Below are positions 31,216 to 46,025 of a stretch of DNA of 64,000 nucleotides, piece by piece (the first letter of the stretch is position 1; the number at the start of each line of letters is the position of its first letter). The notes under the pieces were generated by a model. That model saw only the letters and a list, made by a program, of their open reading frames with translations, had not been told where the DNA came from and ran no database searches. The translations under genes were made by a program, and so were the position numbers. The DNA is from Asticcacaulis sp. EMRT-3 (GTDB taxonomy: Bacteria; Pseudomonadota; Alphaproteobacteria; Caulobacterales; Caulobacteraceae), in contig NZ_JASERT010000001.1 of assembly GCF_030027245.1 (NCBI RefSeq), positions 2,596,501-2,660,500 on the forward strand. The letters are read 5' to 3'.

Positions 31216-32010
31216 ATGGAAACAGCATGTCGTCATTTGGGGCGTTCTTTGGGCCGTCTTTCGCTTCTGGGAGCCGAGGTCGATGTCATCACCCCGGCCC
31301 ATGTGCTCGATTTCGTGGCCATGCGCGCCACATCGGGGCAGGGCGGCATCGTGGCCAATCACAATCTGCACAGCCTTTACCTGTATCAGAAAAGCGCCGC
31401 TATGCGCGCCTTCTATGCCCTGGCCGATCTGATCGAGATCGATTCGACGCCGATGATCGCCTGGGCCAGGCTGCTCGGCCATCAGGTATCGCGCGATCAC
31501 CGCTGCACCTATCTCGATTTCCGCGAAGATTTCTGGGCGCGGGCGCAAGGCCATGACTGGTGCATCTATCATATTGGCGGGGCTTCCGAACATAATGCTG
31601 CCTCGCGCGATGCTATCCTGCGCCGCTATCCGGGCGTTCGCCTGCACCTGCATACCGGTTATTTCGATATGAACGGCCCGGACAATGACGCGCTGCTGGC
31701 CGATATTGCGATGCACCGCCCGCAGGTTCTGCTGGTCGGCATGGGGATGCCGCGTCAGGAAATGTGGATACTGGCCAATCATGACCGCCTGCCGCCGTGC
31801 GTTATCCTGCCGGTCGGCGCTGCCTTCGATTACGAGGCGGGCGTGATGTACACACCGCCGCGCTGGACAGGACGGATCGGCCTTGAATGGCTGGTGCGCT
31901 TCGTGCATGAGCCGCGCCGCCTGTTTGAACGTTATTTCGTCGAGCCGTGGCACCTGATTCCGCAGGCTCTGAAAGATGTGGCATCGCGCCGCATCGGATC
32001 TGCAACTTAA
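31216..32010 (+). CDS. WecG/TagA/CpsF-family glycosyltransferase (GT26)
   Basis: 264 residues. The family signature is spread through the protein: VVANHNLHSLYLYQKS, ADLIEIDSTPMIAWARLLG, IYHIGGASEHNAASRDAI, LLVGMGMPRQEMWI and ILPVGAAFDYEAGVMYTPPRW, followed by GLEWLVRFVHEPRRLFERY. Members transfer an N-acetylhexosamine onto lipid-linked precursors. In Caulobacter the holdfast enzyme HfsJ is, as I recall, of this family, so a polysaccharide or holdfast role is as likely as one in the pseudaminic acid pathway encoded next. Confidence 0.9.
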   Translation: METACRHLGRSLGRLSLLGAEVDVITPAHVLDFVAMRATSGQGGIVANHNLHSLYLYQKSAAMRAFYALADLIEIDSTPMIAWARLLGHQVSRDHRCTYLDFREDFWARAQGHDWCIYHIGGASEHNAASRDAILRRYPGVRLHLHTGYFDMNGPDNDALLADIAMHRPQVLLVGMGMPRQEMWILANHDRLPPCVILPVGAAFDYEAGVMYTPPRWTGRIGLEWLVRFVHEPRRLFERYFVEPWHLIPQALKDVASRRIGSAT

Positions 32011-32031: not shown

Positions 32032-32080
32032 GCGCAGCATCGCAAAACTGGTGGCTCATCAGCCTCGCAGTCAGGTCGTC

Positions 32081-33139
32081 ATGTCGCCCTCATCCCCGCT
32101 CTATCGTGATTTTTCGCCGACCACCGATCCTGTTCAGGGCAAGGTGGTGCTGATCACCGGCGGCACCGGTTCGTTCGGGCGGCGCATGGTGCAGACACTT
32201 CTTGAAAATCACGCGCCGCGCAAGGTGATCATCCTGTCGCGCGACGAACTGAAGCAGTATGAGATGCGCTGCGATCTCGAAGACCGTTTCGATGCCCAGC
32301 AAATGGCGAAGATGCGTTTCTTCCTTGGCGATGTTCGCGACCGCCAGCGCCTGCAACTGGCCTTTCGCGGTGTCGATATTGTGATCCACGCCGCGGCCTT
32401 AAAGCAGGTGCCTGCGGCGGAATATAATCCTTCTGAATGTATCGCCACCAATATCAATGGCGCGGAAAACGTCGTCTGGGCCTGTCTGCAAAACCGGGTC
32501 AGCCGCGTCGTGGCCCTGTCCACCGACAAGGCGTGCTCGCCGGTTAATCTGTATGGCGCTACCAAGCTGGCTTCTGATAAGATTTTCGTGGCCGCCAATA
32601 ATCTGGCCGGTGACATCGGCACGCGCTTTTGCGTGGTGCGTTATGGTAATGTCGTCGGGTCGCGCGGCTCGGTGGTGCCCTATTTCAAACGACTGCTCGA
32701 TCAGGGCGCGGCGGAATTGCCGATCACCGATGCGCGCATGACGCGCTTCTGGATTTCACTCGATCAGGGCGTGGCCTTTGTGTTGTCGTGCATGGAACTG
32801 ACGCAGGGCGGGGAGATCTTCGTGCCGAAGATTCCGGCCACCCTGGTCAGCGATCTGGCTCTGGCGATGGCGCCGGACGCCGGTCATAAAATGATCGGCA
32901 TCCGTCCAGGCGAAAAACTGCACGAGATGATGATCTCGGCGGACGATGCGCGCTCGACCTTTGAGCTGGACGACCGCTATGTGATCGAGCCGGAATTCGT
33001 CGAATATCAGCGCAAGAGCTTCAGTAAGGTGCGCGGTGCGCGGCGGGTGGACGAAGGTTTTTATTACGCCTCCGATAATAATGCCGAACGCCTTGATGCA
33101 CAGGGTATCCGGGCGATGATGGACGCTTACCTGATATGA
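32081..33139 (+). CDS. pseB: UDP-N-acetylglucosamine 4,6-dehydratase (inverting) PseB
   Basis: 352 residues. I chose the ATG at 32081 (MSPSSPLYRDFSPTTD), preceded by AGG; a GTG 30 bp upstream is in frame. The NADP motif is LITGGTGSFGRRMV, and the active-site region is VALSTDKACSPVNLYGATKLASDK, with the Asp-Lys pair and the Tyr of the extended SDR. It catalyses the first step to pseudaminic acid, dehydrating and epimerising UDP-GlcNAc. The next gene starts inside its stop codon (ATGA), so pseB and pseC are coupled. Confidence 0.95.
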   Translation: MSPSSPLYRDFSPTTDPVQGKVVLITGGTGSFGRRMVQTLLENHAPRKVIILSRDELKQYEMRCDLEDRFDAQQMAKMRFFLGDVRDRQRLQLAFRGVDIVIHAAALKQVPAAEYNPSECIATNINGAENVVWACLQNRVSRVVALSTDKACSPVNLYGATKLASDKIFVAANNLAGDIGTRFCVVRYGNVVGSRGSVVPYFKRLLDQGAAELPITDARMTRFWISLDQGVAFVLSCMELTQGGEIFVPKIPATLVSDLALAMAPDAGHKMIGIRPGEKLHEMMISADDARSTFELDDRYVIEPEFVEYQRKSFSKVRGARRVDEGFYYASDNNAERLDAQGIRAMMDAYLI

Positions 33140-34317
33140 GCTTCCTGCCCTATGGCCGCCAGTCGATTGACGATACCGACATCGCGGCGGTGGTGGCGGC
33201 GCTGCAATCCGATTTCCTGACCACCGGCCCGCTGGTTGATCAGTTTGAGCAGGCGCTGGCGCAAACCGTGGGGGCGCAGGAAGCCGTGGTGGTGTCTAAC
33301 GGCACAGCCGCCCTGCATCTGGCGGTGATGAGCGAAAATTTAAGCCCAAAGGATGTGGTGATCGTGCCCGCCATCACCTTTGCCGCCACGGCCAATGCGG
33401 TGGCCTATTGCGGGGCGCAGGTGGTCTTCGGCGATGTCGATCCGCTGACCGGGCTGATGAGCGATGAGGGCTTTGACGCGGCGCTTGAGCTGATCGCGCG
33501 CGACTATGCCGATCACCGCTTTGCCGGGGTGATTCCGGTGCATTATGCCGGGCGGACGGTCGATCTGACGCACATCGCCGAGGTGGCCGGAATGCACGGC
33601 GCTTTTGTGATCGAGGACGCCTGCCATGCGCTCGGCTCGGTGGGGCCGCAAGGCCGGGTGGGATCATGCGCGGCGTCCGACATGGCCTGTTTTTCGTTTC
33701 ATCCGGTCAAGACCCTGACGACGGGCGAGGGTGGGGCGATCACGCTCAATGATCCGGTGCGAGCACGCCGTCTGAGAGCCCTGCGTTCGCATGGCATCGA
33801 GCGCGATCCGGCGCATTTCGTGGCTGAGGAGCGCGGTCCGTGGGTCTATGAGATGCAGGCACTGGGCTATAATTACCGCCTGCCTGATCTGAATTGCGCG
33901 CTGGGCCTGTCGCAGTTGCAGCGCCTTGCCCACTTTGCCGAACGGCGCGCAAAGCTGGTGGGGCAATATCAGAAGGCGCTGGGCGCGTCCAACCTGCCGG
34001 TGCGCTGGGCAGCGCCCTTGCCGGGTGAGACGCCGGTGTTTCACCTGTTTGCCGTATCGATTGATTTTGCCGGTCTGGGCATGACGCGCGAAGCCGTGAT
34101 GGAGGCCTTGCGGGCGCGCGGTATCGGCACGCAGGTGCATTATATCCCCGTGCCGGACATGCCCTATTGGCAGCATAATGCGCTCGGCAAACGTGATCTT
34201 CCGGGTACGGAGCAATTTTACACCACCACCCTGTCCCTGCCTTTGTTCGCCGATATGAGCGATGATGATCCGGCGCGCGTGGTGGCGGCCTTAAGCGAGG
34301 TTTTGCATGGCTCTTGA
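33136..34317 (+). CDS. pseC: UDP-4-amino-4,6-dideoxy-N-acetyl-altrosamine transaminase PseC
   Basis: 393 residues of the DegT/DnrJ fold-type I aminotransferase family. It opens with FLPYGRQSIDDTDIAAVVAALQSDFLTTGP as PseC enzymes do. The PLP lysine lies in MACFSFHPVKTLTTGEGGAI, and the acidic cofactor contact is VIEDACHALGS. It aminates the 4-keto product of PseB. It overlaps pseB by 4 bp and pseI by 11 bp. Confidence 0.95.
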   Translation: MSFLPYGRQSIDDTDIAAVVAALQSDFLTTGPLVDQFEQALAQTVGAQEAVVVSNGTAALHLAVMSENLSPKDVVIVPAITFAATANAVAYCGAQVVFGDVDPLTGLMSDEGFDAALELIARDYADHRFAGVIPVHYAGRTVDLTHIAEVAGMHGAFVIEDACHALGSVGPQGRVGSCAASDMACFSFHPVKTLTTGEGGAITLNDPVRARRLRALRSHGIERDPAHFVAEERGPWVYEMQALGYNYRLPDLNCALGLSQLQRLAHFAERRAKLVGQYQKALGASNLPVRWAAPLPGETPVFHLFAVSIDFAGLGMTREAVMEALRARGIGTQVHYIPVPDMPYWQHNALGKRDLPGTEQFYTTTLSLPLFADMSDDDPARVVAALSEVLHGS

Positions 34318-35356
34318 AGTCACGATAGCGGGCCGCAAAATCGGTGCCGGTCACGAGCCCTATATTATCTGCGAATTGTCGGGCAATCATAATGGCTCGC
34401 TGGAGCGCGCCCTGGCCCTGGTCGATGCCGCCGCCGCCACGGGCTGCGATGCCATCAAGCTGCAAACCTATACGGCCGACACCATCACCATGACATCTGA
34501 CCGGCCGGAATTCTTCATTCATGGCGGGCCGTGGGATGGCCGCGCCCTGCATGATCTTTATAATGAGGCCCATACGCCGTGGGACTGGCATGAGGCTCTG
34601 TTTGCGCGCGCTCGCCAGCACGGCGTCACCATGTTTTCATCGCCGTTTGATGAAACCGCTATCGACCTGCTCGAAAGCTTAAACGCGCCCGCCTATAAGA
34701 TCGCCTCGTTTGAGCTGGTTGATCTGCCGCTCGTCGCCTGCGCGGCCTCGAAAGGCAAGCCGCTCATCATGTCCACCGGCATGGCCAATGCCGCCGAGAT
34801 CGACGCTGCCGTCCAGACGGCGCGCAAATTCGGTTCGGGGGAGATCATCCTGTTGCACTGTGTGTCCAACTATCCGTCCGATATTGCCGACGCCAATGTG
34901 CGCACCGTACCTGATCTGGGCGCAAAGTTTGGCTGCGTGTCGGGACTGTCGGATCACACCCACGGCGTCGCGGCGTCGGTGGCGGCGATTGCGCTCGGCG
35001 GAGCGGTGATTGAAAAGCATTTCACCCTGGCCAGATCGGATGGCGGGCCGGATGCGTCGTTTTCACTCGAACCGGCGGAATTTACCGCTCTGGTACGCGA
35101 TTGCAAGGATGCGTGGAAGGCGCTGGGCCACGTCCATTACGATACTCTGGGTACGGAACAAGGCTCGAAAACCTTCCGCCGTTCGCTGTATGTGGTCAGG
35201 GATGTCAAGGCTGGCGAGGTGCTGACCAAGGACAATATCCGCTCGATCCGTCCGGGTTTGGGTCTTTCACCTGCCCGCCTGTGGAATGTACTGGGCAAGG
35301 TAGCCACGCGCGATCTGGTGCGCGGGGAACCTCTGGCGATGGATATGGTAGGTTAG
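34307..35356 (+). CDS. pseI: Pseudaminic acid synthase PseI
   Basis: 349 residues, the normal length. The NeuB-type TIM barrel shows YIICELSGNHNGSLERAL, DAIKLQTYTADTITM, IKIASFEL-like YKIASFELVDLPLV, IMSTGMANAAEID, LLHCVSNYPS and GLSDHTHG. A C-terminal SAF domain (SLYVVRDVKAGEVLTKDNIRSIRPG) follows. It condenses the 6-deoxy-altrose diacetamido sugar with phosphoenolpyruvate. It ends 3 bp before the convergent DUF4019 gene. Confidence 0.95.
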   Translation: MALEVTIAGRKIGAGHEPYIICELSGNHNGSLERALALVDAAAATGCDAIKLQTYTADTITMTSDRPEFFIHGGPWDGRALHDLYNEAHTPWDWHEALFARARQHGVTMFSSPFDETAIDLLESLNAPAYKIASFELVDLPLVACAASKGKPLIMSTGMANAAEIDAAVQTARKFGSGEIILLHCVSNYPSDIADANVRTVPDLGAKFGCVSGLSDHTHGVAASVAAIALGGAVIEKHFTLARSDGGPDASFSLEPAEFTALVRDCKDAWKALGHVHYDTLGTEQGSKTFRRSLYVVRDVKAGEVLTKDNIRSIRPGLGLSPARLWNVLGKVATRDLVRGEPLAMDMVG

Positions 35357-38276: not shown

Positions 38277-38660
38277 ATGAAATATATTGTTGAAAGCAGC
38301 AAAAGCGTCGATCAGGCCGTGGCCGCCCTGCACGAGGCCGTGCCCGCTCACGGTTTCGGCATTCTGCATATTCATAATCTGAAGGAGACGATGGCCAAAA
38401 AGGGCGTCGCTTTCGACCACGAATGCCAGATTCTCGATGTCTGCAATCCCGGCAAGGCCAGGGCGGTCTTGAGCGAGGACATGACGATGAGCCTTGTCCT
38501 GCCGTGCAAGCTTTCGGTGTATGAAGAGGGCGGCAAGACCCATATCGGCATGGTGCGGCCCACCGCCCTGCTGGGCGCGATGAGCGATTCCCCCGGCATG
38601 GCCGAGGTCGCCAAAGAGGTCGAGGCGACGCTGACCGCGATTATTGACGCTGCGAAATAA
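38277..38660 (+). CDS. DUF302-domain protein
   Basis: 127 residues, one DUF302 domain: MKYIVESSKSVDQAVAALHEAVPAHGFGILHIHNLKETMAKKG, FDHECQILDVCNPGKARAVL, MSLVLPCKLSVYEEGGKTHIGMVRPTALL. There is no signal peptide. A good AGGAG precedes the start. The domain's role is unknown, though it often accompanies redox or metal genes. Its last 20 bases overlap the 3' end of pseF on the opposite strand. Confidence 0.9.
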   Translation: MKYIVESSKSVDQAVAALHEAVPAHGFGILHIHNLKETMAKKGVAFDHECQILDVCNPGKARAVLSEDMTMSLVLPCKLSVYEEGGKTHIGMVRPTALLGAMSDSPGMAEVAKEVEATLTAIIDAAK

Positions 38661-39339
38661 GCACGCGGAAGGCTTGCTCGGCCACCTCCCAGTCTTCGGG
38701 CGTGTCAATATCGACCACCAGATTACGCGGCAGGATAACCGGTGCGGAAATCGGTGAAAAGGTGATCTCGCCCCTCAGCCAGGCCTCGCTCCAGCCCCAG
38801 TAGAACTGCGCGGCGTCATGAAAGGCCGGTTCCAGATCCTGTGAGCGCTTCATCAGGTTTTCCGGCCAGAACATGTCAAGCCCGCCATCTGCCGTCTGGC
38901 GCAGGGCGCGCTGGATCGGAAAGGCGTAGGAGGTGACGGAAAAAGCGAAGCGCTTGCCCGGTTGTTGCAGGGCGTTCCAGCCCTCTTTCAGCTTGTCGGG
39001 ATCGAGAAAAGGGGCGGTGGCGTAGATGCAGCAGCAGGCATCGGCGGCTTCGCCCTGTTCGGCCAGCCATTGTAAGGCGTGAACGATGACCGGCCCCGTG
39101 CCGGCGTGGTCATTGGCCAGTTCGGCGGGGCGCATGAAGGGGGTTTCGGCGCCGTGTTCGCGCGCCACGGCGGCGATTTCGTCGTCATCGGTCGAGACGA
39201 TGATGCGCTCGAACAGGCCACTGGCCTGTGCCGCCCGGATCGCATAGCTGATCATCGGCTGGCCGTGAAACAACTTGATATTCTTGCGCGGAATGCGTTT
39301 TGAGCCGCCGCGCGCCGGGATGACGGCCACCTTTTTCAT
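38641..39339 (-). CDS. pseF: Pseudaminic acid cytidylyltransferase PseF
   Basis: 232 residues. The CTP-binding motif is VIPARGGSKRIPRKNIKLFHGQPMI at the N-terminus, and further signatures are IIVSTDDDEIAAVA, AADACCCIYATAPFLDP and LVVDIDTPEDWEVAEQAF. It activates pseudaminic acid to CMP-Pse. Its start overlaps the stop of the PhyH-like gene by 4 bp (ATGA), which ties that dioxygenase to the pathway. Confidence 0.95.
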   Translation of the reverse strand: MKKVAVIPARGGSKRIPRKNIKLFHGQPMISYAIRAAQASGLFERIIVSTDDDEIAAVAREHGAETPFMRPAELANDHAGTGPVIVHALQWLAEQGEAADACCCIYATAPFLDPDKLKEGWNALQQPGKRFAFSVTSYAFPIQRALRQTADGGLDMFWPENLMKRSQDLEPAFHDAAQFYWGWSEAWLRGEITFSPISAPVILPRNLVVDIDTPEDWEVAEQAFRVLISQRQ

Positions 39340-40265
39340 GCCATCACCAGTTTGTTGATATAGGGGTCACGGCCTGCAAGCGGCAGGCGCTCGCTACCAC
39401 GCGGACAAAAGGGCGACGGATAGAGATTATATTCGATGGCCAGCAGCAGGCGTGGTTCATCGACCGGCAACTGCCCCTTGTGAAAGCCATAGACATCTTC
39501 GAGAAACCACGAACCGGCGGGGCCGGTGATGCGCGCGATGGACGCCTCGCCAAAGGTGGCGGCAATGGCCTCGTCGGTCTGGGCGCGGCCCGTATCGAGG
39601 CGACGGTCGCGGTGGGAGCCGCGCACGAATCTGTGCGGGCCGGACGCTTCATCAACATCGGTGAGATAATAGAAGGCTTTGAAATTTCGGGCGCAATCAT
39701 AATCGCGGTGGAAGCGCTGCACGCTTTTGGCGGTTTCGCGGCCTGGGTAAGACCAGGTGATGCCGATATTATCGATCACCGGCTTGCAGCCCATATAGGC
39801 CTCGGCGACGGCCAGTATGTCGGGCTGGTTCATCAGGGCGGCCATGTGCGGCGCGCGCAGGGTTTCGTTCCAGCTATAATAGCCGATATTGATTTCGTCC
39901 GAAGGCGGAGCATCCCAGCGAAAGCTGCCAAGATGCGGCCGGTAGGGGTCATGGCAGGGGGTGGCTTTAAAATAGGTCACCAGATCGGCCAGCCAGCCGG
40001 GATCGATGGCGGGCTGCATATCGGTGACGCCCTCTTCGCGCAATTGCTCAAGCAAAGCCCTCGCCCGCGCTGACAGTTTCAGACCGGGCGTTTTTGGCGC
40101 AAAGGCGGACAGGGTTTGCACCAGGGCCTGGCGCTGGCCCAAGCCCAGCACGGGCAGCAGGTCATAGGCGATGTTGCGACTGTCTGTGCGCGCCCGCCCG
40201 GCGAAATGGCGGAGGCTGGGTATGCGCGTTTTCAGGCGCTCGGAAAAGGTAATCTTGTCGCCCAT
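39336..40265 (-). CDS. PhyH-type (phytanoyl-CoA dioxygenase family) 2OG-Fe(II) oxygenase
   Basis: 309 residues. The iron-binding HxD is His186/Asp188 in QRFHRDYD, with the distal His in YGFHKGQL and the 2OG-binding Arg probably in PRLLLAIEYNLYP. The region ARNFKAFYYLTDVDEASGPHRFVRGSHRDRRL is typical of the family. Members hydroxylate acyl-CoA, ACP- or carrier-bound substrates as well as sugars. It is coupled to pseF by a 4-bp overlap and lies 17 bp after the acyl carrier protein gene, so an acyl or sugar hydroxylation in the pseudaminic acid pathway is likely; the substrate is unknown. Confidence 0.85.
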   Translation of the reverse strand: MGDKITFSERLKTRIPSLRHFAGRARTDSRNIAYDLLPVLGLGQRQALVQTLSAFAPKTPGLKLSARARALLEQLREEGVTDMQPAIDPGWLADLVTYFKATPCHDPYRPHLGSFRWDAPPSDEINIGYYSWNETLRAPHMAALMNQPDILAVAEAYMGCKPVIDNIGITWSYPGRETAKSVQRFHRDYDCARNFKAFYYLTDVDEASGPHRFVRGSHRDRRLDTGRAQTDEAIAATFGEASIARITGPAGSWFLEDVYGFHKGQLPVDEPRLLLAIEYNLYPSPFCPRGSERLPLAGRDPYINKLVMA

Positions 40266-40282
40266 CAAAGCGTTCGGGCGTT

Positions 40283-40504
40283 TTACAGATCGACCAGGGC
40301 GGCCAGATCGTCGAGGGTTTTGGCGTCTTTCAGCTTGTCGCTATCCACCGCCTTGCCCAGATCGGCATCGACCATAGCGACAAAGGTGATGACCGACAAG
40401 GAATCCCAGTTGCCGACATCGTCGATCTTTTCCTCTCCGGTCAGGCCGGACGGATCGGCTTCGAGAATGTCCGCGACGGCGGCGATAAAGGCGGGCTTGT
40501 CCAT
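40283..40504 (-). CDS. Acyl carrier protein, pathway-dedicated
   Basis: 73 residues, four-helix ACP pattern with the phosphopantetheine-attachment Ser35 in GNWDSLSVITFV. It is short and acidic, as ACPs are. It is not in a fatty-acid gene context and is the first gene of the minus-strand group ACP-PhyH-pseF, divergent from the ketosynthase-led group 188 bp away. A dedicated carrier for a small acyl unit is the simplest reading. Confidence 0.9.
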   Translation of the reverse strand: MDKPAFIAAVADILEADPSGLTGEEKIDDVGNWDSLSVITFVAMVDADLGKAVDSDKLKDAKTLDDLAALVDL

Positions 40505-40692
40505 GACGAAATCCTTGCAAAAGAGGCGAAACCGGCCGGTGATGCGACCGCGAATCGTGTGATCATAGCTAAGACTCTATCCCTCAATATAAGCTTAATA
40601 TTGCGCGAGCAGAACGTGCGATCTTAACCCTTTTTAAGCTTCGCTGACTATGATGCGAATCGCAGTCGGCCTTGCAGGCCAGGGAGGTATCT

Positions 40693-41760
40693 ATGCCCGA
40701 AACCCATCTGGATGGGATCGCCTTTCGCGGCGTTCGCGCCTGCGTTCCGGCTCAGTCGCGCACGCTCGAAGACGAAAACCTGATCGATACCGAGGCCGAG
40801 CGCGAACGGCTGATGAAATCGATCGGTGTGCGTTCGCGCCATATTGCCCGCCCCGAGGTCATGACCTCCGATCTGTGCCATAAGGCGGCCGACGGCCTGC
40901 TCGACCAGCTTGGCTGGGCGCGCGACACGGTGGATGTGTTGATCTTCGTCACCCAAAGCGCCGACTATGTGATCCCGGCCACGGCCTGCGTTTTGCAAAC
41001 GCGCCTGGGCCTGGGTTCATGCCTGGCTTTCGATGTCAATCTCGGCTGTTCGGGCTATCCATACGGCCTGTGGCTGGCAGCCAGCCTACTCAAAAGCGTC
41101 AGCGTCAGCGGACGGCCAGCACGGGCGCTTATTCTGGCTGGTGATATATCTTCGGCGCGCATGGTGCCCGGTGATCGCAGCGTCATTCCGCTGTTTGGCG
41201 ACGCCGGCACGGCCACGGCGCTGGAAACCGACCCGGACGCCAAACCCATGCACGGCGTTTTCGGTACGGATGGCGCGGGCGCAGAACACATCATCATCAA
41301 GGCGGGCGCGCTCAAGGGGTCGTTGCTGCCGCAGCGCGAAGCCATGAGCGAGGAGGCCTTCGAGCAGCTTTACCGCGATTCACGCCTGTATCTGAACGGC
41401 ACTGAGGTTTTTAACTTCACGCTGAAAAACGTGCCGCCGCTGGTTCAGGCCATTTTTGATGCGGCCGCCGTTTCCATTGACGATGTCGATTATGTCGTCT
41501 TCCATCAGGCCAATACCTTCATGCTCAACCATCTGCGCAAGAAATCGGGCCTGCCGGAAGACAAGGTGCCGATCGCCATGGAAACCTTCGGCAATACCTC
41601 ATCGGCCTCGATTCCGCTGACCCTGTGCGCGCGCCTGTCTGACGCCCTGACTGAGCCGCGCGAACTGGTCTTTATCGGTTTTGGCGTCGGCTGGTCGTGG
41701 GGCGCGATGAAGCTGTCAGTCAGTGGCATTCCCGCGCCGCAGATCGATGACTATGGCTGA
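40693..41760 (+). CDS. KAS III-like (FabH/HMG-CoA synthase-like) ketoacyl synthase
   Basis: 355 residues; AGGGAGG lies ahead of the ATG at 40693. Thiolase-fold motifs: active-site Cys119 in NLGCSGYPYGL, His in YVVFHQANTFML, Asn in FGNTSSASIPLTL. Further sequence such as SIGVRSRHIARPE and FVTQSADYVIPATA is typical of the FabH superfamily. It joins an acyl-CoA to an ACP-bound malonyl unit or transfers acyl groups. The dedicated ACP is divergent and adjacent; the Rieske gene overlaps the 3' end by 8 bp. Confidence 0.9.
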   Translation: MPETHLDGIAFRGVRACVPAQSRTLEDENLIDTEAERERLMKSIGVRSRHIARPEVMTSDLCHKAADGLLDQLGWARDTVDVLIFVTQSADYVIPATACVLQTRLGLGSCLAFDVNLGCSGYPYGLWLAASLLKSVSVSGRPARALILAGDISSARMVPGDRSVIPLFGDAGTATALETDPDAKPMHGVFGTDGAGAEHIIIKAGALKGSLLPQREAMSEEAFEQLYRDSRLYLNGTEVFNFTLKNVPPLVQAIFDAAAVSIDDVDYVVFHQANTFMLNHLRKKSGLPEDKVPIAMETFGNTSSASIPLTLCARLSDALTEPRELVFIGFGVGWSWGAMKLSVSGIPAPQIDDYG

Positions 41761-42865
41761 TACGTTCCGCATCGCAGCGCTACGAGGACGGATCGCGGCG
41801 GATTACTATCATCGCGATGACGTATTGGCGGCTGAGCTGGAGCATGTCTTCAAGCCGTCATGGCTGTGTGTCGGATTTTTGCAGGATGTGCAAAACCATC
41901 AGGATTTTATCACCGCCCGGATCGGTCATCACGACATTGTGGTGCAGAATTTCCACGGCGAACTGAGGGCTTTTCGCAATGTCTGCTCGCATCGCTTTGC
42001 CCGCATCCAGTGCGCCAGCACCGGCAATCGTCCTCTCCAATGCCCCTATCATGGCTGGACCTATGACGGCGCGGGCCGTCCGGTTGGCATCCCGCTCAAT
42101 GGTCACAGCTTCAGTCTGGATGAGGCGGACAAGGATGCGCTGGCGCTCGAAGCCTATGCGCTGGAAACGGTCGGCCACTTCGTCTTTGTACGGATGAGTC
42201 GCGAAGGCCCCTCCTTGCAGACATTCCTCGGCAGCTTTTATGACGATTTGCATCATGTCAGCGAAACCTGCCCGGATCGTTTCGAGAAGGATAGTTTCGA
42301 CTGGGAGGCCAACTGGAAACTGGGCATGGACAATGCCGCCGAAGGCTATCATGTGCCTTTGGTTCATGCCGAAAGCTTCGGTGAAATCCTGTCAACCGAC
42401 CTGACCCTGACCACGGATGCGGGCCATAGCCGCTATGTCGGTCAGTTGAAAGAGCGCTCGCTGAAATGGTGGGGCAATGTCGCCAAATCGATCCGGCTGG
42501 AACCCGGCGACACATATCCGCACTATGCCAGCTTTCTGATTTTCCCCAATATCATCGTTGTTTACGCCTATAGCGCCTTCCTGACCTTCCAGACTTTTGA
42601 CCCCACCGGGCCGCAAACCTTGCGCATCCATACGTCGGCATGGCTGGCGCGCAATAATGGCCGGGCCGCACGCGATATGGTCGTTGAGTCGCTAAGAGGG
42701 TTTTCGGCTCAGGTGCGTGACGAGGATCGTGACATCTGCGCCAAAGCCCAACGCGGCACGCGGGAAGCGGGGGCACGGCGCCCCTTGCTGGGAGTTATGG
42801 AAGGGCGTATTCGTCATTTTCAGGAAACCTATATACAGTATATGCAGAAAGCCCGATTACCATGA
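41753..42865 (+). CDS. Rieske non-heme iron oxygenase, alpha subunit-like
   Basis: 370 residues. The [2Fe-2S] Rieske motif is Cys78-x-His80 (CSH) and Cys97-xx-His100 (CPYHGW). The catalytic iron site follows in [19 protein letters not shown], with the two histidines and bridging acidic or Asn residue of the family. C-terminal sequence ([19 protein letters not shown]) matches the ring-hydroxylase/choline monooxygenase-type group. No dedicated reductase or ferredoxin gene is nearby. Located between the KAS III-like and SDR genes with overlaps on both sides, it should oxidise the acyl or sugar intermediate of this module. Confidence 0.9.
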
Positions 42866-43629
42866 GCCAGCCCCTCTTCAACCCCATGTCAATGGAGGGG
42901 CGCACGGTTCTGGTTACCGGGGCGACGAGCGGTATCGGCATGGCCACGGCCATCTATCTGTCGCGTCTGGGTGCGCGCGTGGTGGCCAGCGGACGCAGCG
43001 AAGAACGTCTGGCCGAGGTGATGAGCCAGCTTGCAGGCGAGGGTCATCTGGGCAGGCTGTTCGATCTGGCGCAGCTCGATGAGATCGTGCCGTGGCTGAA
43101 GGCCCTGTGCGCTGAGATTGGCCCGCTCAATGGCATCGCCCACTGCGCCGCCGTGCAGGCCACACGGCCTATTCAGGCCATCAATGCCGACTTCGTCACC
43201 AACGCCCTGTCGCAGAATCTCGGCGCATCCCTGATGCTGGCGCAGGCCTATCGCCTGAAGGCCTGCCGCGGCACACCCGCTTCGCTCGTCTATTGTTCGT
43301 CATCGGCGGCCCTGCGCGCCGCCCCCGGCAATGTCGTCTATGCCGCCACCAAGGGCGGGCTGGTTTCAGCGGTCAAGGGCCTGAGCCATGAACTGGTGCG
43401 CGACGGCATCCGCGTCAATGCCGTGGCCCCGGCCATGGTCGATACGCCGATGGCCGAAAATTTCCGCACGATCGTATCGCCGGAAAAGTTCGCGCACGTC
43501 GTAAGCCTGCAACCGCTCGGCCTTGGCCGCCCCGATGATGTGGCCGCCGCCATCGCCTATCTGCTGGCCGATACGGGCCGCTGGGTGACCGGCACGGTGC
43601 TCAATGTCGATGGCGGGTTTCTGGCGTGA
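42862..43629 (+). CDS. Short-chain dehydrogenase/reductase (FabG-like)
   Basis: 255 residues. The cofactor motif is [10 protein letters not shown], followed by the active-site Ser in [11 protein letters not shown] and Tyr/Lys in VVYAATKGG, then [14 protein letters not shown] and the C-terminal [10 protein letters not shown]. It overlaps the Rieske gene by 4 bp. A FabG-like reduction of a beta-keto group made by the KAS III-like enzyme would be logical; this is inference. Confidence 0.92.
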
Positions 43630-44483
43630 CCACGATGGCTCCCGCGCGCAGCCCGGTACGCAAGCTGGCGCGGCGCATCCATGACGGCCATTCGCGCGGG
43701 CCTTTGAGCTATCTCGACATGGGCAGGGCCGACGCGCCCGCCATCGTTTTCATTCATGGCTTCGGCGCTGATCTGCTCACCTGGTATCTGTGTCTTGTGC
43801 CGCTGGCATCGTCGTTTCGGGTGATCGCGCTCGATCTGCCGGCGCACGGCGCCTCCACCACCGAGGTTGGCGACGCCTCGCTCGACGCCATGCTCGACTG
43901 GTTCGAGGAGGCGCTTGAGCTGCTCGATGTGCGGGCCGCCCATCTGGTGGCCCATTCGATGGGGGCCAAGATCGCGCTCGGCTTTGCGCTGCGCCATCCC
44001 GAACCCAGCCTCAGCCTTGGGCTGGTTTCGCCCGCCGGACTGGGTGGCCATGCCAATCACGATGCGCTCAACGCCTTTATCGACGCGCCAACGCCAGAGC
44101 TGGCCGAAGCCTTTGCCCGTCGGCTGACCGGCCCGGCAGCCGCGCATTTGCTGCCCGCCATGACGCGCGCCCTGATGGAGACGATGTCCGACTCTGAGCG
44201 CCGCACCGCCCTGGGTCACCTGCTGGGCCGGTATCAGGCCTCGGCCCTGACCTGTTTTCAGACCAATGCCACTTTTTCTGCCGGGGATTTGCTGGGGCTG
44301 CACTGTCCGCTTTTGATCCTGTGGGGCGCGCATGACGACATCCTGCCCCGGCCCGATATGGCGCAATTGCCACCGCACTGCCAATGGGTTCACCTGGCGG
44401 ATGCCGGACATGTGCCGCACATGGAAACGCCGCAGGCCGTGGTGGCGGCGTTGAAAAGCTTCCTCTCAGCCGGGGTGGCCTGA
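43626..44483 (+). CDS. Alpha/beta hydrolase (thioesterase or acyltransferase-like)
   Basis: 285 residues from a GTG at 43626 that overlaps the SDR stop. Motifs: oxyanion region [13 protein letters not shown], nucleophile elbow [13 protein letters not shown], Asp in [12 protein letters not shown] and His in [13 protein letters not shown]. It lacks a signal peptide. In this setting it could release or transfer the ACP-bound acyl group. It overlaps pseG by one base (TGATG), binding the acyl module to the pse genes translationally. Confidence 0.85.
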
Positions 44484-45460
44484 TGCGCCTGTTTATCCGC
44501 ACGCAAGCCTCAAGCGCCATCGGCATGGGCCATTTCATGCGCTGTTTCGCCATTGCCGAAGCGGCGCGCGCGCAAGGGTTGGCGGTTACCTTCCTGCTGG
44601 ATGCTCTGGAAGATGGTGTGCGCCAGCGCCTGAGCGAGATTGGGGCGGATGGTGTCGTCATACCCGCTCTGGGCAGCGGCGAAGACCTGATGCGGCTGTC
44701 CGAACTGGGCCTGACGCGGCGCGACTGGCTGATCGTCGATTCCTATGCTGCCGACGAAGCCTATCTGGCCGCCTTAAGTTTGCTGGCGCGGCTGTGCGTG
44801 ATCGACGATCTCGGCCTGCTGGCCGTCTATGATGCTGATCTGCTGATCAATCCGGCTCTGGCCGCGCCCGATATGGGCTATGCGACCAAAACGCGCGCCC
44901 GCTGTCTGCTGGGGGCGCCCTATGCCTTGATCCGACGCGAGTTCCGTGAGGCTGTGGCGCGGCCCGACGGGGTGGTGACGATCATGTTCGGCGGTTCCGA
45001 TCCGCAGAACTTAAGCGCCGCCTGCGCCGAAATCCTGCTTCACAATGATATGTTCCGTGTACGGATCATCGCGGGCCCGGCCAATGCGCACATCGCCGGA
45101 TTGCGGGCATTGGCGGCGCTGCATGACCGGCTGGAGGTGGTGGCGTCGCCGCCCTCCGTTGCCGAAGCCCTGAGCGACAGCGCGCTGGTGATCACGGCGG
45201 CGGGCGGTACGGTGGGCGAGCTGGCGGCGATGGGGCTGCCCGCGCTGGTGCTGGTGGTGTATGATAATCAGGCGGCGGCGCTGAGCGCCTGTCCCTATCC
45301 GGTGATCGATGCGCGCACGGGCCTGCCCACGGATCTGACGCTGCGGGTGGCGGCCCTGCTGGCCGATCCGGCGGGGCGCGTGCAAAACGGTCAAAAGGCG
45401 CATGGGCTGGTCGATGGGCTGGGGCCGCGGCGCATTATGGAGGCCATGACCGGTGTATAG
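44483..45460 (+). CDS. pseG: UDP-2,4-diacetamido-2,4,6-trideoxy-altropyranose hydrolase PseG
   Basis: 325 residues of the GT-B-like hydrolase family. N-terminal IRTQASSAIGMGHFMRCFAIAEAARAQG carries the catalytic His in GMGH. The C-terminal nucleotide site is VTIMFGGSDPQNLS and VITAAGGTVGELAAMGLPALVLVVYDNQ. It removes UDP from the diacetamido sugar, freeing it for PseI. The next gene overlaps by 8 bp. Confidence 0.93.
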   Translation: MRLFIRTQASSAIGMGHFMRCFAIAEAARAQGLAVTFLLDALEDGVRQRLSEIGADGVVIPALGSGEDLMRLSELGLTRRDWLIVDSYAADEAYLAALSLLARLCVIDDLGLLAVYDADLLINPALAAPDMGYATKTRARCLLGAPYALIRREFREAVARPDGVVTIMFGGSDPQNLSAACAEILLHNDMFRVRIIAGPANAHIAGLRALAALHDRLEVVASPPSVAEALSDSALVITAAGGTVGELAAMGLPALVLVVYDNQAAALSACPYPVIDARTGLPTDLTLRVAALLADPAGRVQNGQKAHGLVDGLGPRRIMEAMTGV

Positions 45461-46025
45461 TTTTTTGTCCTGCCGCCCGGTGACGCCGGATGACGCGAAA
45501 TTGCTGCTCGACTGGCGCACGGCCCCGCACGTCACGCAATATATGCTGACCGACGTGCCCTATGACATCGAACGCCAAAGGGGCTGGATTCAGCGCTGTC
45601 AGGCGCGTGACGATTATCACGACTGCATCCTGCAATGCGAAGGCCGCGACATCGGCTATACCTCCATCACCATCACGGACCGGCATTCCGGCATAGGTGA
45701 GATCGGCATCTATATTGGCGACCTGACCGCGCCGCACGCCCTGACCATGTATAATTTCGTTCACACGCTCAACCATGCCTTTTTCACGCTCGGCCTGCAC
45801 AAGCTGGTCAATCATGTGGTGGCGTGGAATGGGCGCGTGGTGAAGATGCAGGCTTTTAACGGTTATCGCCATGTCGGGGTATTGAAAGAGCACGCCCTGA
45901 AGGACGGGGTGCGCCACGACCTGCATATTTTCGAGCAGTCGGCAGCCGAATGGGCCGTATTTCGTAAAAAATTTCCCGATAACCGTAACTGGTGGGGCGC
46001 ACAAACAGTATATGATGGACATTGA
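45453..46025 (+). CDS. pseH: GNAT N-acyltransferase PseH
   Basis: 190 residues from a GTG at 45453. It follows the GNAT fold with PseH features: LLLDWRTAPHVTQYMLTD, IGEIGIYIGD, TMYNFVHTLNHAFFTLGLHKLVNHVVAWNGRVVKMQAFNGYRHVG. PseH normally acetylates the 4-amino group of the PseC product with acetyl-CoA. With an ACP-based acyl module in the same operon, its donor could be an acyl-ACP instead; nothing in the sequence decides this. Confidence 0.9.
   Translation: MYSFLSCRPVTPDDAKLLLDWRTAPHVTQYMLTDVPYDIERQRGWIQRCQARDDYHDCILQCEGRDIGYTSITITDRHSGIGEIGIYIGDLTAPHALTMYNFVHTLNHAFFTLGLHKLVNHVVAWNGRVVKMQAFNGYRHVGVLKEHALKDGVRHDLHIFEQSAAEWAVFRKKFPDNRNWWGAQTVYDGH

Follow-up and report, generated by a model that had tools for sequence, protein, structure and literature searches.

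The stretch analyzed here, referred to as the window, comprises 64,000 nucleotides of Asticcacaulis sp. EMRT-3 (contig NZ_JASERT010000001.1, positions 2,596,501 to 2,660,500). It contains the genes for the biosynthesis of pseudaminic acid (Pse) and, next to and partly among them, genes for an acyl carrier protein (ACP), a condensing enzyme resembling 3-ketoacyl-ACP synthase III (KAS III), a Rieske oxygenase, a short-chain dehydrogenase/reductase (SDR), an α/β hydrolase, and a PhyH-family dioxygenase, which together with a GNAT-type acyltransferase are herein called the module. All genes that a first-pass annotation had named at this locus, both the acyl and oxygenase genes and the pse genes, were found by open reading frame (ORF) and family searches. 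The features are as follows.

31216..32010, forward strand: WecG/TagA/CpsF-family glycosyltransferase, adjoining PseB (PF03808; TIGR00696 above cut-off)
32051..33139, forward strand: PseB, inverting UDP-GlcNAc 4,6-dehydratase (TIGR03589 502.5 bits, cut-off 407.75)
33136..34317, forward strand: PseC aminotransferase (TIGR03588 463.8 bits, cut-off 423.5)
34307..35356, forward strand: PseI pseudaminic acid synthase (TIGR03586 497.4 bits, cut-off 340.25)
38641..39339, reverse strand: PseF CMP-Pse synthetase (TIGR03584 326.9 bits, cut-off 205.7)
39336..40268, reverse strand: PhyH-family Fe(II)/2-oxoglutarate dioxygenase, accessory (PF05721 22.1 bits, cut-off 22)
40283..40504, reverse strand: dedicated ACP with DSL motif, Ser35 (PF00550)
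40505..40692: spacer of 188 bases between two divergent gene rows, with TTAA-N6-TTAA at 40624-40637
40693..41760, forward strand: KAS III-like condensing enzyme (PF08541/PF08545; below TIGR00747 cut-off)
41753..42865, forward strand: Rieske oxygenase alpha subunit (PF00355/PF00848)
42862..43629, forward strand: FabG-like SDR (PF13561)
43626..44483, forward strand: α/β hydrolase, accessory (PF00561)
44483..45460, forward strand: PseG UDP-sugar hydrolase (TIGR03590 170.2 bits, cut-off 153.55)
45453..46025, forward strand: divergent PseH-like GNAT acyltransferase without the coenzyme A (CoA) pyrophosphate loop (TIGR03585 56.7 bits, cut-off 93.1)

The genes diverge around the spacer, the left row being formed by ACP–PhyH–PseF and the right row by KAS III–Rieske–SDR–hydrolase–PseG–GNAT. 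The two overlaps that had been taken to tie the module to the pathway are real and measure 4 bp between PhyH and PseF in the left row and 1 bp between the hydrolase and PseG in the right row. The latter row contains further overlaps of 8 bp between KAS III and Rieske (with the ATG at 41753), 4 bp between Rieske and SDR, 4 bp between SDR and hydrolase (GTG start), and 8 bp between PseG and the GNAT. PseB, PseC, PseI, PseF, and PseG all exceed the cut-offs of their NCBIfam equivalog models (5/5). PseB, PseC, and PseI lie at 32051–35356, and a DUF4019 gene, a pirin gene, and two more ORFs are located between them and PseF. The Pse pathway is complete, but only partly interleaved with the acyl module: the first-pass annotation, which saw the module inside a complete pathway, was right about the completeness, whereas PseB, PseC, and PseI stand apart. 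The gene it had called PseH encodes a divergent GNAT that is not confirmed as PseH, given its score of 56.7 against the required 93.1 bits.

The gene group is conserved within the genus. Of 149 family genomes searched, 17 have a Rieske homolog at E ≤ 1e-40, and all 17 fall into a single genus, which was represented by 23 genomes in that draw; of two further genus genomes, one has it. Herein, neighborhood genes are labeled by their best BLAST match to proteins of the window or its relatives, except where Pfam or NCBIfam models are given. The neighborhoods of 16 relatives, searched by tblastn, all contain ACP, KAS III, Rieske, SDR, and PseF (each 16/16); PseG and the GNAT are present in 15, and the exception (locus L028) starts at a contig end and has its GNAT on another contig. 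PhyH and the hydrolase are each found in 12/16, and a 17th relative (L251) contains the full gene set. In several genus genomes, PseB–PseC–PseI is distant or on another contig, and PseF, PseG, and the GNAT remain with the module. Many relatives (L023, L029, L035, and others) contain a second submodule before PseG, consisting of ACP2, an AMP-binding ligase, SDR2, and a KAS III. With reference sequences taken from three of these same loci, the second KAS III was detected in 13 of 16 (55% or more to either of two references), the second ACP and SDR2 in nine (at least 77%), and the ligase in seven. The window represents a shorter form, without the second submodule. In addition, a LeuA-like gene (2-isopropylmalate synthase type) adjoins PseF in four of the 16 relatives (L026–L029), perhaps by chance or as a supplier of a precursor.

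CoA-dependent GNATs contain a pyrophosphate loop of the form R/Q-x-x-G-x-G/A. Tested as [RQK]xxGx[GA], this motif is found in 0/17 module GNATs versus 13/13 other GNATs of the family, the latter being those with loci out of more than 100 matches. It is also found in none of 82 GNAT homologs (one a misaligned fragment) versus all seven comparison GNATs. Close orthologs of the module GNAT are present in every Rieske-bearing genus genome (17/17) and in none of the six Rieske-less ones. Canonical PseH, meaning a TIGR03585 score above 93.1 bits, occurs in seven of 25 genus genomes and is absent from that of the window; in two Rieske-less relatives it occupies the same place in the locus as the module unit. 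PseG identity does not cleanly separate Rieske-bearing from Rieske-less genomes (means of 55% within and 47% between groups, with overlapping ranges). The structure model of the GNAT (predicted local distance difference test score, pLDDT, of 93.8) shows the GNAT fold, with matches including PseH (4ri1) and FdhC (5ktc) by Foldseek and VIA-align. FdhC, which we take to be from Acinetobacter, differs by its entry title in having CoA bound in the structure and in serving another sugar. The PseH enzymes of Helicobacter pylori and Campylobacter jejuni (4ri1, 4xpk), as described in the available part of PMC4363471, share the fold and the expected position in the pathway. The window GNAT matches both by profile, a profile that contains canonical PseH rows; unlike PseH, it stays below the PseH cut-off and has no CoA pyrophosphate loop motif.

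Linkage extends beyond the genus. A scan of species-genome contigs kept 80 Rieske loci of more than 593 pattern matches, and all 80 were annotated, some on short contigs. The six closest of them, at 34 to 43% identity, come from a member of the Kiloniellaceae, two Azospirillum, a member of the Vampirovibrionales, Niveispirillum, and Paraburkholderia; KAS III lies nearby in five of the six and PseI in one. Among the 74 more distant loci, just one (L065) has KAS III or pse genes nearby; its KAS III genes stand in a row of aminotransferase–KAS III–ACP–KAS III–SDR–hexapeptide transferase–Rieske. At least five more Rieske matches at E ≤ 1e-45 were found among 385 alphaproteobacterial genomes, and a set of 398 genomes from across the phylum added at least two at E ≤ 1e-40; all seven of these further loci lie by KAS III or pse genes. 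Pooled, 13/13 outside loci are linked, with KAS III in ten and a PseI or PseG homolog (BLAST label) in seven, a set that may include duplicates (L037–L042 versus L234–L238, L249, and L250). The rarity of acyl genes beside pse genes that the first-pass annotation had named as evidence against itself was thus not what the neighborhoods displayed, as all 16 relatives and all 13 outside loci are linked. Most informative among the outside loci is L249 (genome G722), where the genes stand together in another order: PseB- and PseC-like genes, ligase, ACP2, GNAT, SDR, ACP, cytidylyltransferase, PseI, Rieske, PseG, SDR, and two KAS III. Its PseI scores 499.9 bits and is above the cut-off, its PseG is just under with 148.3 of 153.55 bits, and its cytidylyltransferase passes no PseF cut-off. 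Three loci (L040, L042, and L250) contain the cassette with a DegT-like aminotransferase and no labeled pse gene in the stretch; hence, the cassette is not confined to Pse. That the gene group is conserved both within the genus and beyond it argues strongly against a chance association. FkbM-type methyltransferases adjoin the cassette in other lineages (L041, L234, and L250) and could O-methylate a hydroxyacyl group.

The catalytic motifs followed in the module enzymes are Cys-His-Asn for KAS III, DSL for the ACP, Tyr/Lys for the SDR, Ser-Asp-His for the hydrolase, and HxD...H plus Arg for PhyH. In the ACP, the DSL motif is intact, and D34-S35-L36 is invariant in 15 sequences. C126, H278, and N308 of KAS III (numbered from the TTG start of the ORF at 40672) are invariant in 30 sequences, second KAS III copies included. 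A housekeeping FabH was ruled out for this protein, which reaches 181.9 of 292.1 bits for TIGR00747 and 219 of 249 bits for PRK09352; the one further match to it in the genome shares 32% identity. A protein-database search with KAS III gave 7950 matches among 7998 scored candidates and is uninformative on linkage. The SDR has Y160 and K164 invariant in 19 sequences and falls below the cut-off of each of the best 25 of 232 NCBIfam models. S111, D237, and H262 of the hydrolase are invariant in 11 sequences; the enzyme is regarded as accessory, with thioester proofreading as a guess at its role.

For the Rieske oxygenase, residues were compared across the best 120 of 440 homologs. The [2Fe-2S] ligands C78, H80, C97, and H100 are present in 119/120, and of the mononuclear-iron and bridging residues, E197 and H200 are present in all 120, H205 in 119, and D325 in 118. 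Carnitine monooxygenase CntA is the only one of 35 PDB matches that aligns over the Rieske catalytic domain to the end. This group V Rieske enzyme has in common with the window protein the Rieske ligands, the His-His-Asp triad, and the bridging Glu, and its Y203 is the aromatic residue holding the quaternary amine (from the accessible portion of PMC7948474). At the Y203 position, the 120 homologs have A in 89, G in 19, V in 11, and S in one, and this non-aromatic position indicates that the substrate is not a quaternary amine. A choline, carnitine, or betaine enzyme was hence ruled out; the score against the GbcA model is 105.1 bits with a cut-off of 670. The nearest database proteins of both Rieske and KAS III are, where named, mostly from Asticcacaulis, and the names "choline monooxygenase" and "carnitine monooxygenase" on this Rieske clade are probably wrong. 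Unlike CntA, the window cluster has no reductase partner among the module genes. An NAD/Fer2 reductase unlinked to the module (G000:C1:174615; a single reductase family was searched) could be the electron partner. Tandem Rieske pairs were observed at L036:8952-11217 (G145) and at L234:8889-11086, the latter in an alphaproteobacterium outside the genus; this arrangement suggests two successive oxidations. Directly upstream of Rieske, a BNR-repeat protein is encoded at L038:8555-9856 (Azospirillum) and in the similar locus L238:8032-9360.

PhyH passes the Pfam gathering score only just, with 22.1 versus 22 bits, and has H187-x-D189, H263, and R273 invariant in 13 sequences. Its structure model is of low confidence (pLDDT 67), so the top listed fold matches, which are 2-oxoglutarate oxygenases, would support assignment to the superfamily only. 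Two Rieske-less Asticcacaulis contain a PhyH-family gene (L209:8409-9326 and L210:7545-8462) beside PseG and canonical PseH, whose similarity to the window PhyH is undetectable.

Among systems that have been tested, the nearest is the Pseudomonas syringae viosamine island (vioA, vioB, vioS, vioR, and acp). The available text of PMC3927599 proposes that KAS III, FabG, ACP, and an acyltransferase make the N-3-hydroxybutyryl viosamine found on flagellin there, and deletion of vioR, encoding the reductase, abolishes the modified viosamine. The same type of gene set, that is KAS III, a FabG-type reductase, an ACP, and an N-acyltransferase by amino-sugar genes (an aminotransferase gene in P. syringae), is present in the window. 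The island differs in acting on dTDP-viosamine and not on Pse, and Rieske, PhyH, and the hydrolase are not among the seven genes listed in that part of the article, which does not mention a CoA loop of the acyltransferase. A second comparison is provided by the psaABCGHF capsule genes of Acinetobacter baumannii, which specify Pse5Ac7(R)Hb; there, (R)-3-hydroxybutanoyl on N7 is associated with another type of PseG/PseH pair, and within the accessible text of PMC9676051 an ACP is not mentioned and KAS III or an oxygenase is not among the genes described. According to the parts available, group II pse islands of Aeromonas contain ACP, FabG, and AMP-ligase genes (PMC7874193), and flagellin islands of Enterobacteriaceae contain ACP, FabG, and ligase genes (PMC4875605). 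Both sets resemble the second submodule (ACP2–ligase–SDR2) of the relatives; LuxC/LuxE are present, and no Rieske and no named KAS III appear in these portions.

We read the module as a dedicated N-acyl pathway for Pse, in which a custom acyl group replaces the acetyl group on N7, and assign this reading a probability of roughly 0.68. It draws directly on the gene content, the catalytic residues, the linkage, the canonical PseH found in place of the unit in two relatives, and the loss of the CoA loop. On the dedicated ACP, a short 3-oxoacyl chain would arise by KAS III-catalyzed condensation of an acyl starter and a malonyl unit, and the SDR would reduce it to a 3-hydroxyacyl group. This short 3-hydroxyacyl-ACP route is predicted because of the analogy with the viosamine case of P. 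syringae and the Pse case of A. baumannii. The Rieske oxygenase would then put a further hydroxyl group on the chain. Acting directly on the acyl-ACP, the divergent GNAT would transfer the chain to the PseB/PseC product, at the 4-amino group where canonical PseH would put acetyl; this assignment fits both the gene swap and the missing CoA loop. PseG, PseI, and PseF would finish CMP-Pse, whereby the acyl group comes to lie on N7. The order of the steps is to be taken in this conditional sense, and so are the donor role of the ACP, the length of the chain, and its hydroxylation. The earlier proposal that an acyl chain is built on the ACP and put on the sugar thus gains from the linkage of acyl and pse genes and from the GNAT; its hydroxylated product and the place of that product in the final glycan we infer. 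The boldest form of the proposal is tentative, and we would not bet on it at even odds: the Rieske enzyme may hydroxylate the ACP-bound (or just-transferred) acyl group and a CoA-independent GNAT may take it from the ACP, giving an undescribed N7-hydroxyacyl Pse, with the cassette serving other amino sugars elsewhere. Our single best guess at the product, offered as a long shot, is a hydroxylated C4 group, for example 3,4-dihydroxybutyryl.

In the leading alternative, which we regard as unlikely though worth serious attention, the sugar receives plain (R)- or (S)-3-hydroxybutyryl, and Rieske and PhyH act on the sugar ring or, after transfer, on the N-acyl group, comparable to the oxidation of the N-acetyl group of CMP-Neu5Ac by the Rieske enzyme CMAH. 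Both precedents yield 3-hydroxybutyryl in the available texts (PMC3927599 and PMC9676051), and CMAH has a Rieske domain (from the accessible part of PMC9219854). By analogy with this maker of N-glycolyl sialic acid, oxidation after transfer is conceivable here too. Two Rieske-less genomes have, beside their pse genes, a PhyH-family gene with no detectable similarity to that of the window; because of this and its partial presence in the family, the window PhyH may have the sugar as its substrate rather than the acyl chain. It is treated as accessory, with sugar tailoring as a guess. However, the Rieske gene sits between KAS III and SDR with overlaps of 8 and 4 bp, and Rieske homologs in the DegT-like cassettes L040, L042, and L250, without a labeled pse gene, suggest that the substrate is the acyl group and not Pse.

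The production of a longer, lipid-like acyl group is improbable. Such a liposugar was proposed for the flagellin islands of Aeromonas and Enterobacteriaceae on the basis of ACP, FabG, ligase, and LuxC/LuxE genes (available portions of PMC7874193 and PMC4875605), whereas a single KAS III allows one elongation, and the Pfam scan found no KAS I/II or dehydratase among the module genes, the unlabeled genes of the relatives not having been screened for such enzymes. Least probable of all is that the module and the pse genes are mere neighbors, with an unrelated small molecule as the module product: KAS III, ACP, and SDR are enzymes of general use, GNATs form a large family, and cassettes without labeled pse genes exist, but the linkage holds in all 16 relatives despite differing surroundings, including genomes with distant PseB/PseC/PseI, and recurs in other lineages.

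Returning to the N7-acyl reading, the claim of the first-pass annotation that no described pse locus has this gene set needs to be divided. ACP-based acyl modules are already known from sugar and pse islands of P. syringae, Aeromonas, and Enterobacteriaceae (PMC3927599, PMC7874193, and PMC4875605, each as far as its available part goes). The combination of a Rieske gene with Pse was, by comparison, not found. In the literature searched, which did not cover subscription papers, there was no joint report of a Rieske gene and pseudaminic acid, Rieske together with flagellin glycosylation led only to plant work, and flagellin glycosylation together with a KAS III and an ACP only to a genome article on C. 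difficile. The flagellar island of C. jejuni contains acyl/FabH2 genes. A phytanoyl (PhyH-type) gene is not mentioned in PMC4875605, the one source in which it was sought. What appears to be new is the added Rieske gene, the loop-less GNAT (the latter not searched in the literature), and the fact that unit and canonical PseH can stand in for each other at the locus.

Flagellins and capsules are decorated with pseudaminic acid, whose N-acyl groups differ from one bacterium to another. Part of this variety would be explained, and its prediction from genomes aided, by a transferable cassette through which one of the groups is rewritten. If the proposal is true, a Rieske enzyme acting on an ACP- or sugar-bound acyl group in bacteria and an acyl-ACP-dependent GNAT in the Pse pathway would both, to our knowledge, be biochemistry not described before, and each activity can be tested with a few purified proteins.

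The spacer contains TTAA-N6-TTAA (40624-40637), close to the CtrA box, whose consensus is TTAA-N7-TTAA. Upstream of KAS III, a TTAA-N7-TTAA site occurs twice in each of three relatives and is absent from 13 of 16; a regulatory role for TTAA-N6-8-TTAA at this position was dropped, since such sites are present in the window and 3/16 relatives only. Promoter and terminator scans gave fewer sites than shuffled sequences (1 versus 2.6; 3 versus 7.2). With respect to the destination of this Pse, the genome contains flagellin genes (four of five matches above the Pfam cut-off), and in view of the WecG-type gene by PseB, a polysaccharide could equally be the acceptor.

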